A DNA stretch of 64,000 nucleotides from Oceanicaulis sp. MMSF_3324 (GTDB taxonomy: Bacteria; Pseudomonadota; Alphaproteobacteria; Caulobacterales; Maricaulaceae). Below the pieces are notes generated by a model that did no database searches, was not told where the DNA came from, and worked only from the letters and a program-made list of their open reading frames with translations. Below, piece by piece: positions 49,094 to 55,499 of this stretch (positions are counted from its first letter, which is position 1; each line of letters opens with the position of its first letter). Made by a program: the position numbers and the translations under genes. The DNA lies in the NCBI RefSeq assembly GCF_030733545.1, contig NZ_JASHIU010000009.1, positions 1 to 64,000 on the forward strand. Reading direction: 5' to 3'.

Positions 49094-49495
49094 ATGCCGC
49101 TTAAGCTTTCTTTGAAGCCGGGTGAGAAGTTCGTTCTGAACGGAGCCGTTGTGGAAAACGGGGATCGCCGGGCGACCCTGGTTTTGCAGAACAAGGCCAG
49201 CGTTCTGCGGGAAAAGGACATCATGCAGGAGCATGAAGTCGATACGCCCGCCAAGCGCATCTATTTCCCGGTCATGATGATGTACCTCTCATCAACCAGT
49301 CAGGACGGATTATATGACGAATTCGTTCTGCGTATGACAGAGTTCATGAACGCTGTGGGCTCTTCGGACGTCATGGCCGAGTGCGTATCGGTCAGCCGGG
49401 AAGTCATGGCGGGTGAGTTCTACAAGGCATTGCTGCGTTGCCGGAAGTTGATCCAATACGAAGCCAAGCTTCTTGCTGGACCGGACGAGGCGTAA
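49094..49495 (+). CDS. flbT: Flagellin translation regulator FlbT
   Basis: FlbT of 133 aa, which in Caulobacter binds the 5' UTR of flagellin mRNA and restrains its translation until the hook is complete. The sequence (PLKLSLKPGEKFVLNGAVVENGDRRATLVLQNKASVLREKDIM, then RIYFPVMMMYL, YDEFVLRM) is the FlbT family pattern. It is followed by flaF and the first flagellin in the same direction. The leader palindromes before the flagellins are natural candidate target sites. Confidence 0.94.
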   Translation: MPLKLSLKPGEKFVLNGAVVENGDRRATLVLQNKASVLREKDIMQEHEVDTPAKRIYFPVMMMYLSSTSQDGLYDEFVLRMTEFMNAVGSSDVMAECVSVSREVMAGEFYKALLRCRKLIQYEAKLLAGPDEA

Positions 49496-49510: not shown

Positions 49511-49861
49511 ATGTCGTATCAGGCCTATAAAACTGCGTCGTCACGCACCGAAGATCCCCGTCAGACCGAGTATCGATTGCTCGGCGAGGTGACGCGCGGT
49601 CTTATGGAAGTGCGCGATGCGCCGAAGAGCGAAATCCGTCAGCGTGCGGCGGCGCTGGACCGCAACCGCCGTGTCTGGTCCGCCTTTGCGGCCGATTGCG
49701 CCAGCGAGCACAACAATCTGCCCGAAGCGCTGCGGGCGGGGATCATCTCTTTGTCGATTTTCGTCTCCAAGGAGACGAGCGCGGCCATGCGTGGAGAGAG
49801 TGATCTCGAGGCGCTGATCGATATCAACCGTACGATCATGCAGGGCCTCTCACCCTCCTGA
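49511..49861 (+). CDS. flaF: Flagellar protein FlaF
   Basis: FlaF of 116 aa, a small protein that in Caulobacter is needed for flagellin synthesis/secretion and opposes FlbT. It begins AYKTASSRTEDPRQTEYRLLGEVTRGLMEV, then RRVWSAFAADCASEHNNLPEALRAGIISLSIFV, all family-typical. It starts 15 nt after flbT with GAGGCGAA upstream and precedes the first flagellin by 227 nt. Confidence 0.94.
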   Translation: MSYQAYKTASSRTEDPRQTEYRLLGEVTRGLMEVRDAPKSEIRQRAAALDRNRRVWSAFAADCASEHNNLPEALRAGIISLSIFVSKETSAAMRGESDLEALIDINRTIMQGLSPS

Positions 49862-50000: not shown

Positions 50001-50016
50001 CGGCACGGGGATTGCT
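50001..50016 (+). promoter_or_regulatory. Sigma-54 promoter of flagellin 1
   Basis: CGGCACGGGGATTGCT matches the -24/-12 consensus TGGCACG-N4-TTGC in all but the first base, with 10 nt between GG and GC. The predicted start is near 50027, about 60 nt before the flagellin ATG. Confidence 0.82.
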
Positions 50017-50020
50017 GTGT

Positions 50021-50051
50021 CTTGGCCGGGACAAAATGTCCGCCGGCCAAG
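50021..50051. promoter_or_regulatory. Nested palindrome at the flagellin 1 transcription start
   Basis: CTTGGCCGG pairs with CCGGCCAAG, and inside lies GACA-AAA-TGTC. It straddles the predicted start, so it is more likely a protein-binding site (FlbD-type) than an RNA hairpin. A second smaller stem, CCGTTC / GAACGG (50058-50076), lies next to the ribosome-binding site AACGGAGGAA. Confidence 0.55.
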
Positions 50052-50088
50052 AACAGGCCGTTCGCTTCCAGAACGGAGGAACCCCACA

Positions 50089-50916
50089 ATGAACGTTTCT
50101 GTGAACACCAACTCAGGAGCCATGATCGCGCTCCAGAATCTGAACAAGACCAACATGGAACTGCAAACCACACAGAACCGGATCAACACCGGTCTGGAAG
50201 TGTCTAGCGCAAAGGACAATGGCGGCGTGTACGCCATCGCCCAGCGCATGCGCTCCCAGGTTTCAGGCTATGGGGTTGTCGGACAGATCCTGGACCGGGG
50301 CGAGGCGACGCTCGACGTTGCACTTGCCGCCGGTGAAGCGATCTCGGATCTGATGGTCGAAATGAATGAGAAGGCCTTGGCGGCGTCTGACGCATCATTG
50401 GATACGGCTAGCCGGAGCGCTCTGAATGAAGATTTCAAAGCGCTGCGCGACCAGATCTCAACGATCGTCAACAATGCCGAGTTCAATGGCGTGAACCTCA
50501 TCGATGGTTCAACCAACGCCTTTGTTGCGCTGGCCAACCAGGACGGCTCGAACACGATTACCGTGAGTTCCGAGAACATGTCGCTCTCGGGCTCCATCGT
50601 GTCCCTGACGTCCACGGCGTCGTTCGCGACCGCCACTCAGGCCAGCAATATTGCTTCTCAGATCAGCACTTCGCTGGATGCGGTGAACTCGTCGCTTGCG
50701 CGACTGGGCACCAAATCCAAAGCGTTGGAGATCCACTCCTCGTTTGTCACAAAACTTTCCGACGCTCTGGAAGTCGGTATCGGCAATCTGGTCGATGCGG
50801 ATCTGGCCAAGGAGTCTGCCGAGTTGCAGGCCCTGCAGGTCAAGCAGCAGCTGGGCACGCAGGCGCTTTCGATCGCCAACCAGCAGCCGCAATCGATCCT
50901 GTCGTATTTCGGCTAG
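50089..50916 (+). CDS. Flagellin 1
   Basis: Filament subunit of 275 aa. ATG 50089 (MNVSVNTNSGAM) is used, with AACGGAGGA upstream. The N-terminal D0/D1 helices are MIALQNLNKTNMELQTTQNRINTGLEVSSAKDNGGVYAIAQRMRSQVSGY. The C-terminal D0 has LVDADLAKESAELQALQVKQQLGTQALSIANQQPQSIL. No large D2/D3 insert is present, giving the short alphaproteobacterial type. It is about 60-65% alike its neighbours by eye and differs from them in LEVSSAKDNGGVYAIA and the QQPQS end. A strong terminator follows. Confidence 0.96.
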   Translation: MNVSVNTNSGAMIALQNLNKTNMELQTTQNRINTGLEVSSAKDNGGVYAIAQRMRSQVSGYGVVGQILDRGEATLDVALAAGEAISDLMVEMNEKALAASDASLDTASRSALNEDFKALRDQISTIVNNAEFNGVNLIDGSTNAFVALANQDGSNTITVSSENMSLSGSIVSLTSTASFATATQASNIASQISTSLDAVNSSLARLGTKSKALEIHSSFVTKLSDALEVGIGNLVDADLAKESAELQALQVKQQLGTQALSIANQQPQSILSYFG

Positions 50917-50970: not shown

Positions 50971-51015
50971 CAAGCTTTCATTAACCAAATCAACCAGCTG
51001 GCCGTGCTGCCTGCT

Positions 51016-51072
51016 CGGCAAAAAGTGCCGCGCCCGGCAATTCCTGCCGGGTCTAGGCGGCAAGAATTGCCC
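51016..51072. promoter_or_regulatory. Three tandem ftr-like palindromes (FlbD enhancer candidates)
   Basis: CGGCA-N5-TGCCG occurs at 51016-51030 and 51035-51049 (extended CCCGGCA ... TGCCGGG at 51033-51051). A near copy, CGGCA-N5-TGCCC, lies at 51058-51072. They start 90-146 bp upstream of the -24 element of flagellin 2, the expected enhancer range for FlbD. The Caulobacter ftr consensus is of this CGGCA...TGCCG kind. Confidence 0.75.
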
Positions 51073-51161: not shown

Positions 51162-51177
51162 TGGCCCCGGCCTTGCT
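51162..51177 (+). promoter_or_regulatory. Sigma-54 promoter of flagellin 2
   Basis: TGGCCCCGGCCTTGCT keeps TGG, the C at position 4, the TTGC and the 10-nt spacing. It gives a start near 51188, about 68 nt before the ATG. Confidence 0.78.
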
Positions 51178-51203
51178 CCTAGATGTGCGGACCAGAAGGT
51201 CTG

Positions 51204-51240
51204 ACGCGCAAAATGCACGTCACATCAAACGTAGAAACGT
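51204..51240 (+). promoter_or_regulatory. Flagellin 2 leader stems
   Basis: ACGCGCA-AAA-TGCACGT (one mismatch) at 51204-51220 and ACGT-AGAA-ACGT at 51229-51240. Matching elements with different bases occur before flagellins 3 and 4. Followed by ACAGGAGCC, the ribosome-binding site. Confidence 0.6.
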
Positions 51241-51255
51241 GACAGGAGCCAAGAA

Positions 51256-52080
51256 ATGGCGACGATCAATACCAATCCGGGCGCAATGATCGCCCTGCAA
51301 AACCTGAATCAGACCAACAAGGATCTGCAGCAGGTTCAACAACGCATCAACACCGGTCTGGCGATCAGCTCGGCCAAGGATAATGGTGGCGTGTTCGCCA
51401 TCGCTCAATCCATGCGCGCTGACGTGGCTGGCTATAATGCCGTGTCCCAGTCGCTTGACCTGGCCCAATCCACTGTGGACGTCGCCCTGGCGGCGGGTGA
51501 AGCCATCTCCGACTTGATGGTCGAGATGAAGGAAAAAGCGCTCGCATCCACCGATTCCTCGCTGGATACCGCGTCCCGCAATGCGTTGAACGAAGATTTT
51601 GTCGCCCTGCGCGACCAGATTTCGACCATCGTGGAGAATGCCGAGTTCAACGGCACCAATCTCATCTCCAACGGCGCGTCCGATATCACGGCGCTCGCCA
51701 ATGCAGATGGCTCGAACACCATCACCATCGGTGCTGAAGACCTGAGCCTGACGGGCGGTACGCTGTCCATCGGCGCCGGCAGCACGATCTCGACGGTGGC
51801 CGCCGCCAGCACGGCTGTGGCTGCGATCGAAGCGGGTCTGGACAACCTGAACTCCGCGCTGGCCCGTCTGGGCACCGGCTCGAAGTCCCTGGAAATCCAC
51901 TCCACCTTCGTCACCAAGCTGTCTGATGCCCTGGAGAAAGGCATCGGCAACCTGGTCGACGCGGATCTGGCCAAAGAGTCGGCTCGTCTCCAGTCGCTGC
52001 AGGTCAAGCAGCAGCTGGGTACGCAGGCGCTCTCGATCGCGAACTCCGCACCGAGCTCAATCCTGAGTTACTTCCGGTAA
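51256..52080 (+). CDS. Flagellin 2
   Basis: Filament subunit of 274 aa, start ATINTNPGAMIALQNLNQTNKDLQQVQQRINTGLAISSAKDNGGVF. End LVDADLAKESARLQSLQVKQQLGTQALSIANSAPSSILSYFR. The D0/D1 regions are nearly identical to flagellins 3 and 4, while the central part (about residues 135-200) differs. GGAGCCAAGAA precedes the ATG, and the same leader is used in all three. It is the first cistron of the tandem triple and is driven by the sigma-54 promoter at 51162. Confidence 0.96.
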   Translation: MATINTNPGAMIALQNLNQTNKDLQQVQQRINTGLAISSAKDNGGVFAIAQSMRADVAGYNAVSQSLDLAQSTVDVALAAGEAISDLMVEMKEKALASTDSSLDTASRNALNEDFVALRDQISTIVENAEFNGTNLISNGASDITALANADGSNTITIGAEDLSLTGGTLSIGAGSTISTVAAASTAVAAIEAGLDNLNSALARLGTGSKSLEIHSTFVTKLSDALEKGIGNLVDADLAKESARLQSLQVKQQLGTQALSIANSAPSSILSYFR

Positions 52081-52095
52081 TTCAAGCCCAGTTTC

Positions 52096-52128
52096 GGCGA
52101 TGGCGTCATAGAACATGGCGTCGTCGCC
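52096..52128 (+). promoter_or_regulatory. Intercistronic hairpin between flagellins 2 and 3
   Basis: A 14-bp stem with three G-U pairs (GGCGATGGCGTCAT / ATGGCGTCGTCGCC) closes on AGAAC, 15 nt after the flagellin 2 stop. The tip CAT-AGAA-C-ATG recurs in the next gap (53029-53062). No T-run follows, so it could protect or process the mRNA rather than end it. Confidence 0.6.
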
Positions 52129-52138
52129 GGATCCCTGG

Positions 52139-52171
52139 CGCGCAAAAAGCGCGTCTCAACCGTAGAAACGG
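52139..52171 (+). promoter_or_regulatory. Flagellin 3 leader stems
   Basis: CGCGC-AAAAA-GCGCG (52139-52153) and CCGT-AGAA-ACGG (52160-52171), 20-53 nt before the ATG. The first also resembles a weak -24/-12 element (TGGCGCGCAAAAAGC). Confidence 0.6.
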
Positions 52172-52191
52172 ATCTTTGAAGGAGCCAAGAA

Positions 52192-53016
52192 ATGGCGACG
52201 ATCAATACCAACCCCGGGGCGATGATCGCCCTTCAGAACCTGAATCAGACCAACAAGGATCTGCAGCAGGTTCAGCAGCGCATCAACACCGGCCTGGCGA
52301 TCAGCTCGGCCAAGGACAATGGCGGCGTGTTCGCGATTGCCCAGTCGATGCGTGCGGACGTGGCCGGCTACAAAGCCGTCAACCAATCGCTGGATCTGGC
52401 TCAGTCCACCGTGGACGTGGCCCTGGCGGCGGGTGAAGCCATCTCCGACCTGATGGTCGAGATGAAAGAGAAGGCGCTGGCGTCCACGGACACCTCGCTG
52501 GACACCGCGTCCCGCAATGCCCTGAACGAGGATTTCACCGCGCTGCGTGACCAGATCGGCACCATCGTGGCGAACGCCGAATTCAACGGCACCAACCTGA
52601 TCAATAACGGCGCGACCGATATCACGGCGCTGGCCAACGCTGACGGCTCCAACACCATCACCATTGGTGCGGAAGATCTCAGCCTGACCGGCACCACGAT
52701 CACTCTGACCGCCGGTAGCGTGATCAACACCACGACCACCGCGAACGCCGCGGTGTCCGCCATCGAAACCTCGCTGGACAACCTGAACTCCGCGCTGGCT
52801 CGCCTCGGCACCGGCTCGAAGTCTTTGGAGATCCACGGGACCTTCGTGAACAAGCTGTCGGACGCTCTTGAAAAAGGCATCGGCAACCTGGTCGACGCGG
52901 ATCTGGCCAAAGAGTCGGCTCGTCTCCAGTCGCTGCAGGTCAAGCAGCAGCTGGGCACGCAGGCGCTCTCGATCGCGAACTCCGCGCCGAGCTCGATCCT
53001 GGGTTACTTCCGGTAA
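52192..53016 (+). CDS. Flagellin 3
   Basis: Filament subunit of 274 aa, nearly identical to flagellin 2 in its first 130 and last 70 residues (start MATINTNPGAMIALQNLNQ, end NSAPSSILGYFR). The variable centre has LSLTGTTITLTAGSVINTTTTANAAVSAIETSLDN. No clear sigma-54 promoter of its own is present, so it is probably co-transcribed with flagellin 2 by read-through. The gap after it carries the second hairpin with the same tip. Confidence 0.96.
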   Translation: MATINTNPGAMIALQNLNQTNKDLQQVQQRINTGLAISSAKDNGGVFAIAQSMRADVAGYKAVNQSLDLAQSTVDVALAAGEAISDLMVEMKEKALASTDTSLDTASRNALNEDFTALRDQIGTIVANAEFNGTNLINNGATDITALANADGSNTITIGAEDLSLTGTTITLTAGSVINTTTTANAAVSAIETSLDNLNSALARLGTGSKSLEIHGTFVNKLSDALEKGIGNLVDADLAKESARLQSLQVKQQLGTQALSIANSAPSSILGYFR

Positions 53017-53028
53017 TCCCTAAGACTT

Positions 53029-53062
53029 CGAAGGCGGGCTCATAGAAAATGGCTCGCCTTCG
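53029..53062 (+). promoter_or_regulatory. Intercistronic hairpin between flagellins 3 and 4
   Basis: A stem of at least 11 bp, CGAAGGCG ... CGCCTTCG, with a small bulge, closes on CAT-AGAAA-ATG. The tip matches the hairpin at 52096-52128 although the stems differ. Confidence 0.6.
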
Positions 53063-53069
53063 GGAGTGT

Positions 53070-53102
53070 CGCACAAAAAGTGCGTCGTAACCGTAGAAAC
53101 GG
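53070..53102 (+). promoter_or_regulatory. Flagellin 4 leader stems
   Basis: CGCAC-AAAAA-GTGCG (53070-53084) and CCGT-AGAA-ACGG (53091-53102). Compared with flagellin 3 the first stem has changed one G-C pair to A-T on both sides at once. Confidence 0.6.
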
Positions 53103-53123
53103 ATATTTTGAAGGAGCCAAGAA

Positions 53124-53951
53124 ATGGCGACGATCAATACGAACCCGGGCGCAATGGTCGCCCTTCAGAACCTGAACCAGACCAACAAGGATCTGCAGCA
53201 GGTTCAACAACGCATCAACACCGGCTTGGCGATCAGCTCGGCCAAGGACAATGGCGGCGTGTTCGCAATTGCCCAGTCGATGCGTGCGGACGTGGCGGGC
53301 TACAAGGCGGTGGGTCAGTCTCTTGACCTGGCGCAGTCCACCGTGGACGTGGCCCTGGCGGCCGGCGAGGCGATCTCTGATCTGCTGGTGGAAATGAAGG
53401 AAAAGGCGCTGGCTGGCTCCGATTCCTCTCTCGATACCGCATCGCGCAATGCTCTGAACGAAGACTTCAAGGCGCTGCGTGACCAGATCGGGACCATCGT
53501 GGCCAACGCCGAATTCAATGGCACCAACCTCATCAACGGCACGCAAACCGGCGGCATTTCGGCTCTGGCCAATGCTGACGGCTCCAACACCCTCAATGTG
53601 GGTCAGGAAGTGATGTCGCTGGGCGGCACCAACGTGACTGTGGCGGCGACCGCGTCGTTCACCACGGCGGCGGCGGCGTCCACCCTGGTGGCCACCATTG
53701 AAACCTCGCTGGACAACCTCAACACGGCTCTGGCCAAGTTGGGCACCGGCTCGAAGTCTCTGGAAGTCCACAAGTCCTTCGTGGGCAAACTGTCTGACTC
53801 TCTGGAAAAAGGCATCGGCAACCTGGTCGATGCGGATCTGGCGAAAGAGTCCGCTCGTCTTCAGTCGCTGCAGGTCAAGCAGCAGCTGGGTACGCAGGCG
53901 CTCTCGATCGCGAACTCCGCACCGAGCAACATCCTGGGTTACTTCCGGTAA
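53124..53951 (+). CDS. Flagellin 4
   Basis: Filament subunit of 275 aa, again with the shared start (MATINTNPGAMVALQNLNQ, Ile to Val at residue 12) and end (NSAPSNILGYFR). The central part differs (NGTQTGGISALANADGSNTLNVGQEVMSLGGTNVTVAAT). It closes the tandem triple and is followed by a GC-rich hairpin. Confidence 0.96.
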   Translation: MATINTNPGAMVALQNLNQTNKDLQQVQQRINTGLAISSAKDNGGVFAIAQSMRADVAGYKAVGQSLDLAQSTVDVALAAGEAISDLLVEMKEKALAGSDSSLDTASRNALNEDFKALRDQIGTIVANAEFNGTNLINGTQTGGISALANADGSNTLNVGQEVMSLGGTNVTVAATASFTTAAAASTLVATIETSLDNLNTALAKLGTGSKSLEVHKSFVGKLSDSLEKGIGNLVDADLAKESARLQSLQVKQQLGTQALSIANSAPSNILGYFR

Positions 53952-54591: not shown

Positions 54592-54607
54592 TGGCCCATG
54601 GATTGCT
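54592..54607 (+). promoter_or_regulatory. Sigma-54 promoter of flagellin 5
   Basis: TGGCCCATGGATTGCT has the TGG, TTGC and 10-nt spacing of sigma-54 promoters. It places the start near 54618, about 48 nt before the ATG. Confidence 0.78.
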
Positions 54608-54665
54608 CCTGTATGCGATGAGCGGCCGTCGAATGCGGCGCAGAATTGCAATCGGGAGAAGACCA

Positions 54666-55499
54666 ATGGCGCTCAGCGTCCACACGAACACCTCGGCGAT
54701 GATCGCCCTGCAAAACCTCAACAAGACCAATGAGGACATTCAGGGCGTCCAGAACAGAATCAATACCGGCCTGAAGGTCGCCGGCGCAAAAGACAATTCC
54801 TCGGTCTACGCGGTGGCCCAGGGAATGCGCTCCGACATCGGCGCCTACGGCTCGGTCAGCTCCTCTCTTGATCGCGCCGTCTCGATCGGCGACGTGGCCA
54901 TGGCGGCCGGCGAGTCCATTTCGGACCTGCTGATCCAGATGCGCGAGAAGGCGACTGCTGCGCTCGACCCGTCCATCGATACCTTCTCCCGCCAGGCCTA
55001 TGACAGTGATTTCAAACAATTGCTGGATCAGGTCCGGGTGGTCCTGAATAATGCCGAATTTGACGGCGCCAATCTGCTGGATGGCTCCCAGACCAATGGC
55101 ATCGCCTTCCTGGCGGATGCGGACGCGACGCGCTCGGTCACGCTGGGCGGTCAGAACATGTCCATCTCCGGCTCCATCGTCACGCTGGCCAACAATGCCA
55201 GCCTGGGCACAGTGACGCTGTCCGCCAACGTGCTGACCGCGATCCAGACCAGCCTCGACAATGTGAACCAGGCGCTCGCCAATCTGGGCTCTGACCTGAA
55301 GAAGATCGAGGCCCACCGCACCTTTGTCGGCAAGCTGACCGACAGCCTGACCAAAGGGGTGGGCAATCTGGTCGATGCCGACCTCGCCAAGGAATCCGCA
55401 CGCTTGCAGGCCCTGCAGGTCAAGCAACAGCTCGGCGTCCAGGCGCTTTCGATCGCCAACTCCGAGCCGCAGATCATCCTCAATCTCTTCGGCGGTTAA
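54666..55499 (+). CDS. Flagellin 5
   Basis: Filament subunit of 277 aa, start ATG 54666 (MALSVHTNTSAMIALQNLNKTNEDIQGVQNRINTGLKVAGAKDNSSVYAVAQGMRSDIGAY) with GGGAGAAG upstream. End LVDADLAKESARLQALQVKQQLGVQALSIANSEPQIILNLFGG. It is the most divergent member (LKVAGAKDNSSVY, NLFGG) and has its own sigma-54 promoter. An upstream in-frame ATG at 54573 is rejected, as it overlaps the promoter. Confidence 0.95.
   Translation: MALSVHTNTSAMIALQNLNKTNEDIQGVQNRINTGLKVAGAKDNSSVYAVAQGMRSDIGAYGSVSSSLDRAVSIGDVAMAAGESISDLLIQMREKATAALDPSIDTFSRQAYDSDFKQLLDQVRVVLNNAEFDGANLLDGSQTNGIAFLADADATRSVTLGGQNMSISGSIVTLANNASLGTVTLSANVLTAIQTSLDNVNQALANLGSDLKKIEAHRTFVGKLTDSLTKGVGNLVDADLAKESARLQALQVKQQLGVQALSIANSEPQIILNLFGG

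Follow-up and report, generated by a model that had tools for sequence, protein, structure and literature searches.

The window analysed here, a 64,000-nt stretch of DNA from an alphaproteobacterium of the Maricaulaceae whose nearest named relative is Oceanicaulis sp. HTCC2633 (FlbT 97% identical), carries flbT and flaF next to five flagellin genes, which we call F1–F5 in the order of their starts. The flbT product scores above the cut-off of the NF001995 equivalog 'flagellar biosynthesis repressor FlbT'. The genes and the sigma-54 promoters predicted for them are as follows.

49094–49495, forward strand: flbT, flagellin repressor gene and proposed reader of the hairpins (PF07378, E 5.4e-45)
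49511–49861, forward strand: flaF, flagellin secretion chaperone (PF07309, E 4.2e-36)
50001–50016, forward strand: F1 sigma-54 promoter CGGCACGGGGATTGCT (consensus score; position conserved in relatives)
50089–50916, forward strand: flagellin F1 (reading frame; NCBIfam flagellin models match below their cut-offs)
51162–51177, forward strand: F2 sigma-54 promoter TGGCCCCGGCCTTGCT, 5' of every stem (consensus)
51256, 52192 and 53124: starts of flagellins F2, F3 and F4
54592–54607, forward strand: F5 sigma-54 promoter TGGCCCATGGATTGCT (consensus)
54666–55499, forward strand: flagellin F5, FljJ-like regulatory paralog (Caulobacter FljJ-like genes match F5 better than FljK)

About 110–150 bp upstream of the F2 promoter, at 51014–51051, lie two adjoining palindromes, CTCGGCAAAAAGTGCCG and CCCGGCAATTCCTGCCGGG, which we take to resemble FlbD (ftr) enhancer sites.

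The leaders of F1–F4 each contain three to four short hairpins that share the loop A(A/G)AA(N) and are mostly spaced 16–22 nt.

50029–50041, forward strand: F1 hairpin 1, GGAC-AAAAT-GTCC, at the predicted mRNA 5' end
50044–50060, forward strand: F1 hairpin 2, CGGCC-AAGAACA-GGCCG
50065–50079, forward strand: F1 hairpin 3, CTTCC-AGAAC-GGAGG, with the Shine-Dalgarno (SD) sequence as its 3' arm
51188–51203, forward strand: F2 hairpin 1, CGGACC-AGAA-GGTCTG (98.2% of cells paired in relatives)
51204–51220, forward strand: F2 hairpin 2, ACGCGC-AAAAT-GCACGT, with one C·A mismatch; first stem of the first-pass annotation
51229–51240, forward strand: F2 hairpin 3, ACGT-AGAA-ACGT, directly 5' of the SD sequence GGAG (51245–51248); second stem of the first-pass annotation
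51248–51260, forward strand: F2 hairpin 4, GCCA-AGAAA-TGGC, around the start codon ATG (51256–51258)
52093–52131, forward strand: F3 hairpin 1, long intergenic stem with cap TCAT-AGAAC-ATGG
52137–52155, forward strand: F3 hairpin 2, GGCGCGC-AAAAA-GCGCGTC
52160–52171, forward strand: F3 hairpin 3, CCGT-AGAA-ACGG
52184–52196, forward strand: F3 hairpin 4, GCCA-AGAAA-TGGC, around the start codon
53025–53067, forward strand: F4 hairpin 1, long intergenic stem with loop AGAAA
53070–53084, forward strand: F4 hairpin 2, CGCAC-AAAAA-GTGCG
53091–53102, forward strand: F4 hairpin 3, CCGT-AGAA-ACGG
53116–53128, forward strand: F4 hairpin 4, GCCA-AGAAA-TGGC, around the start codon

The first-pass annotation of this DNA had described two stems before each of F2, F3 and F4. 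Both are present at the positions it gave and are contained in the minimum free energy (MFE) folds of the three leaders (z −3.2, −5.2 and −5.5, respectively), where they correspond to hairpins 2 and 3; the description was incomplete, however, as each leader has three to four hairpins. Its constant AGAA loop in the second stem also held up, but the loop of the first stem is constant too (AAAAN), and both stems are therefore instances of one motif. By the same MFE criterion the F1 leader is not notably more stable than its composition predicts (z −0.6), which counts against the explanation we favor below, and the F5 leader is likewise of ordinary stability (z −0.7). The F2/F3 and F3/F4 intergenic hairpins (52093–52131 and 53025–53067) are unusually long, with 13–17 bp, and retain the AGAA cap, in the shared form TCAT-AGAAM-ATGG. 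No clear promoter of their own is evident in the intergenic leaders of F3 and F4, another point against the favored explanation, and because of this the long hairpins may in addition be points of mRNA processing that generate new 5' ends.

Compensatory change had been claimed for both stems from the paralogs of the window. For the second stem this was only partly borne out, since F3 and F4 are identical there (CCGT/ACGG) and only F2 differs from them, so that the evidence for covariation comes from relatives. We analyzed three alignments of leaders from related genomes, and covariation, the check that the first-pass annotation had proposed, was found in all of them. Among 33 F2-type leaders (alignment A6), 96.7% of cells in hairpins 1 and 2 were paired, compared with 20–41% in slid structures, and 37 cells showed double changes against 9.5 ± 2.7 after shuffling; hairpin 2 by itself was paired in 95.2% of cells, with double changes at four of its five pairs. 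The 14 intergenic leaders of F3/F4 type (A7) gave 92.7% paired cells and 21 double-change cells against 7.2, and the 32 F1-type leaders (A5) gave 87.2% and 24 against 8.0. Stems are thus kept by paired changes, while loop positions in the same alignments are invariant or nearly so. These shuffles leave the relatedness of the leaders in place, and the number of distinct stems therefore matters as well: 51 different 5-nt stem arms bear the same loops. Among Caulobacteraceae, loop sequences have drifted (TGAAA, AAAAT) and bulges interrupt some of the stems, which we count against the favored explanation.

The hairpins also occur far more often than expected by chance. In 288 distinct flagellin leaders, drawn from the whole genomes of 61 relatives and from 80 named FlbT loci, hairpins with a stem of at least 4 bp and an ARAA loop in a 90-nt leader numbered 1.27 per leader, against 0.06 per 90 nt in dinucleotide shuffles, 0.00 on the reverse strand, 0.00 across the first 90 bases of coding sequence and 0.08 in the region from −200 to −111. 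At least two such hairpins were present in 41% of leaders but in 0.1% of shuffles. Separated into classes F1–F4, in which the labels F2–F4 beyond the genus are best-match labels that do not imply orthology, the leaders carried 1.0–1.8 ARAA hairpins each, and their reverse strands 0.00–0.05.

Paired variation could also arise if the stems were palindromic DNA sites, an alternative that the first-pass annotation had raised together with sigma-54-like bases in the first stem; a symmetric transcription regulator such as FlbD, sigma-54 or a similar protein would then contact them. Some features agree with it: perfect palindromes do occur, the first stem of F3 shows GG-N10-GC, and the FlbD-like palindromes at 51014–51051 are nearby. 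The sigma-54-like bases are there but weak, the promoters of relatives mostly lie further upstream, and strong sigma-54 promoters precede the hairpins in F1 and F2 (TGGCCCCGGCCTTGCT at 51162–51177 in the latter), likewise in most relatives. With transcription starts predicted from the consensus alone, hairpin 1 begins at a median of 1–2 nt past +1 in classes F1–F4 (+1 to +3) and is therefore positioned at the mRNA 5' end; by this prediction, transcription does not begin 3' of the stems. Sites for sigma-54 or FlbD would lie at or upstream of the promoter and act independently of orientation, but the hairpins lie downstream and their asymmetric loops invariably occur on the mRNA strand (1.27 vs 0.00 per leader). 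Among stems with a single non-Watson-Crick pair in five, G·U exceeds A·C by 53 to 21 (P = 2.6e-4), and this counts against DNA because a DNA palindrome would not show such an excess. A free stem sequence combined with a fixed loop is also the opposite of a DNA site, and a further stem reaches across the start codon and changes together with codons 2–3, as described next. The leader stems are structured RNA elements rather than palindromic DNA, given the excess of G·U over A·C and the location of the site downstream of the promoter, and we consider the DNA-site explanation extremely improbable.

An ARAA hairpin around the ATG was present in 97 of 147 F2–F4-type leaders, in none of 67 F5-type leaders and in 7 of 74 F1-type leaders. 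About 15 different start-codon stems were seen, e.g., GGCCA-AGAAA-UGGCU, GAUCA-AGAA-UGAUC, UCGCU-AAAAU-GGCGA and GAGCA-AGAAA-UGCUU, and codons 1–3 make up their 3' arm. Of 83 non-redundant sites whose loop falls at the start codon, 56 (67%) form the hairpin with the leader's own coding sequence, but 3.4% of combinations do when the coding start comes from a gene that differs in its second residue, and the leader therefore follows the codons: start-codon stems covary with codons 2–3. F1-type leaders hide the SD sequence in place of the start codon, with a [CU]C-AGAAN-GG pattern near the start in 52 of 74 F1-type leaders versus 1 of 67 F5-type leaders.

This last hairpin, which covers the SD sequence in F1 and the AUG in F2–F4, is also what speaks for control that requires no protein, in which the hairpins themselves would slow initiation, as an RNA thermometer or self-sequestering leader, or shield the transcript, and the A-rich loops would simply be stable and unstructured. 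UUCG and GNRA loops are more stable than ARAA, and the identity of the ARAA loop is conserved beyond what stability needs; moreover, 4-bp stems such as ACGT/ACGT are too weak to act alone, and most of the hairpins are at a distance from where initiation takes place. We give such protein-independent control very little weight.

The array is specific to flagellin genes. Covariance models built from F2-type leaders (R1) and F1-type leaders (R2) were run on whole genomes. Within the genome of the window, R1 found the leaders of F2, F3 and F4 only before reaching chance level, and R2 found F1 only. Across 61 genomes, every match of either model at E ≤ 1e-4 lay at a flagellin start when compared with flagellin positions, including two contig-end cases that were confirmed, while matches above E of ~5e-4 include chance sites upstream of unrelated genes. 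No Rfam family matched the leaders at its gathering score.

Among the flagellins, the array is restricted to the structural genes, and the FljJ-like F5 is largely without it. F5-type leaders (n = 67) contain 0.21 ARAA hairpins each, and the F5 leader of the window has none, with one CGAAT hairpin at 54625–54639; some F5 leaders retain one NRAA hairpin, which we count against the favored explanation. The same division is seen in a Caulobacter genome, where the FljJ-like gene is 59% identical to F5 and 48% to FljK and its leader lacks the array except for one hairpin, CGGC-AAAAUC-GCCG. In published work, FljJ and other flagellins are 49% identical, FlbT and FljJ repress other flagellins, and fljJ is under CtrA control (PMC7591256). 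The exemption of F5 and FljJ-like genes fits co-repression by FlbT and FljJ because the mRNA of the co-repressor itself must escape. The motif TTAACCAT upstream of the Caulobacter FljJ-like gene is in line with CtrA control of fljJ (PMC7591256). FljJ-like genes of Caulobacteraceae and Ponticaulis (loci L070, L072, L073, L075, L145, L148 and others) have CtrA-type boxes, TTAACCAT or TTAA-N7-TTAA, and are mostly without a clear sigma-54 promoter; the F5 genes of Maricaulaceae have one.

The hairpin array is probably the recognition site of the flagellin repressor FlbT, the reader that the first-pass annotation had put forward for the stems. The structural flagellin leaders that carry it lie in a genome with FlbT, and a putative FlbT target is its best-supported reading because flbT and flaF adjoin the flagellin genes, because the array is confined to flagellin leaders and largely missing from the FljJ-like gene, and because it is commoner in genomes with FlbT and present on Caulobacter fljK. 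In the wider alphaproteobacteria, 14 of 29 flagellin leaders from FlbT-containing genomes have an ARAA hairpin against 3 of 30 from genomes without FlbT (P = 0.0015), and with NRAA loops the counts are 19 of 29 and 5 of 30 (P = 0.0002), both comparisons being confounded by kinship. About half of the distant leaders with FlbT thus have no ARAA hairpin, which counts against FlbT. In a genome that we presume to be Caulobacter, the array precedes a gene whose product is 100% identical to the sequence used as C. crescentus FljK: its leader has CGAGC-AAAAT-GCUC, GCC-AAAAU-GGC and CCU-UGAAA-AGG, and other structural flagellins of that genome have similar hairpins. Binding of FlbT to the fljK leader is reported in published work, and FlbT is described as binding flagellin 5' UTRs (PMC3930126, PMC4347634), but in Brucella it is reported as an activator (PMC4347634, PMC8781033), which we count against the favored explanation.

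Another protein could instead read the conserved RNA element, e.g., Hfq, FlaF, a ribosomal protein or a ribonuclease, and control the stability or initiation of these abundant flagellin mRNAs. The A-rich loops resemble the ARN sites of Hfq, which is listed with an ARN preference (PMC4347634), hairpin 1 occupies the 5' end, a typical mRNA-stabilising position, and FlbT is a putative ligand. A global protein, however, would leave unexplained why the array is restricted to structural flagellins, why the FljJ-like paralog nearly lacks it and why it is more frequent in genomes with FlbT, and we find a reader other than FlbT unlikely.

We propose, with reasonable though not full confidence, that the array is a multi-site translational operator of FlbT, which would probably act with the co-repressor FljJ (here F5); FlbT as the reader, joint action of the sites and a block on translation initiation are what we infer. 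Hairpin 1 would form where the sigma-54 transcript begins or close to it, and the last hairpin would enclose the SD sequence (F1) or the start codon (F2–F4). FlbT, encoded nearby and probably joined by FljJ, would bind the ARAA loops in series and keep the initiation region closed, leaving the ribosome blocked and the mRNA open to decay. On completion of the hook-basal body, FljJ would be exported and FlbT released, ending repression, and the FljJ-type gene, largely without the array, could be translated while other flagellins are silent. We lean slightly toward the broader proposal that FlbT founded a separate class of loop-reading RNA repressors, recognizing A(A/G)AA loops in an evenly spaced ladder of hairpins that ends on the start codon, with leader and first codons coevolving and FljJ serving as both co-repressor and export sensor, as an independent counterpart of CsrA-FliW. 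The FlbT question becomes directly testable with an element whose loop is fixed, whose stems vary freely and whose copies can be counted, and for which the FljJ-type leader is a natural negative control; codons 2–3 of a gene coevolving with its own 5' UTR are an unusual case.

The closest known system is the C. crescentus fljK leader, which is the same in its genes, adjoining flbT and flaF, sigma-54 promoters, leaders of ~60–70 nt and presence of the array. Action of FlbT on flagellin leaders has reportedly been known since 2000, from the primary paper by Anderson and Gober. The repeated-loop array, the start-codon hairpin and the exemption of FljJ were not found in the literature searched, which did not include that study, and the primary FlbT papers may already describe some of the Caulobacter leader structure. 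A 2015 review of bacterial RNA-binding proteins gives no recognition motif for FlbT and treats its mechanism as unresolved (PMC4347634).

Two other RNA elements bear comparison with the array. ANTAR target RNAs likewise place hairpins in tandem, two of them, in which loop bases are conserved and stems vary freely, but they belong to an antitermination system, and the flagellin leaders have no terminator or link to an ANTAR protein. The flg-Rhizobiales RNA (RF01736) is an alphaproteobacterial cis-acting RNA upstream of flagellar genes. Neither the window nor the distant leaders examined matched it, and of 289 genomes of the class only 2 gave weak matches, below its gathering score; it is listed as a candidate structured RNA (PMC2864571). 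Alphaproteobacteria that lack FlbT (L242, L247, L251, L256, L261, L262 and L263) share another element where the ribosome binds their flagellin mRNAs, TCCAAGTAGGAG or TCCATGTAGGAG, which is perhaps a site for another regulator.

The predicted fold of FlbT has four N-terminal strands and a C-terminal four-helix bundle (residues 50–133), and no solved relative was found. We rejected a FliS-like assignment of the bundle (1ory and 1orj, Z 7.4–7.5), as these scores fall within the background of helical bundles. Homology of the N-domain to CsrA was also considered, as the segment LKPGE...LREKDI looks alike by eye, and was not adopted: hhalign, Foldseek and VIA-align gave no significant match, hhalign reaching E 0.23 over 11–14 columns against a CsrA comparison set assembled by hand. 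Foldseek returned no match for the N-domain model, a monomer that cannot show a CsrA-type intertwined dimer, and no CsrA chain was among the structural matches of the whole FlbT model. We keep the likeness of the N-domain to CsrA as an unproven lead.

The array nevertheless shares its architecture with CsrA/RsmA operators, such as those of B. subtilis hag and C. jejuni flaA, which also have several short hairpins with one fixed loop, one of them at the SD sequence or AUG. They differ in the loop, which is ANGGA there and ARAA(N) throughout here, with no ANGGA loops in the flagellin leaders. In both cases flagellin is repressed, by CsrA and putatively by FlbT, with a signal tied to flagellin export that is CsrA-FliW there and would be FlbT-FljJ here. 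If the proposal is true, FlbT and FljJ provide another way, besides CsrA-FliW, of linking the translation of flagellin to its export.
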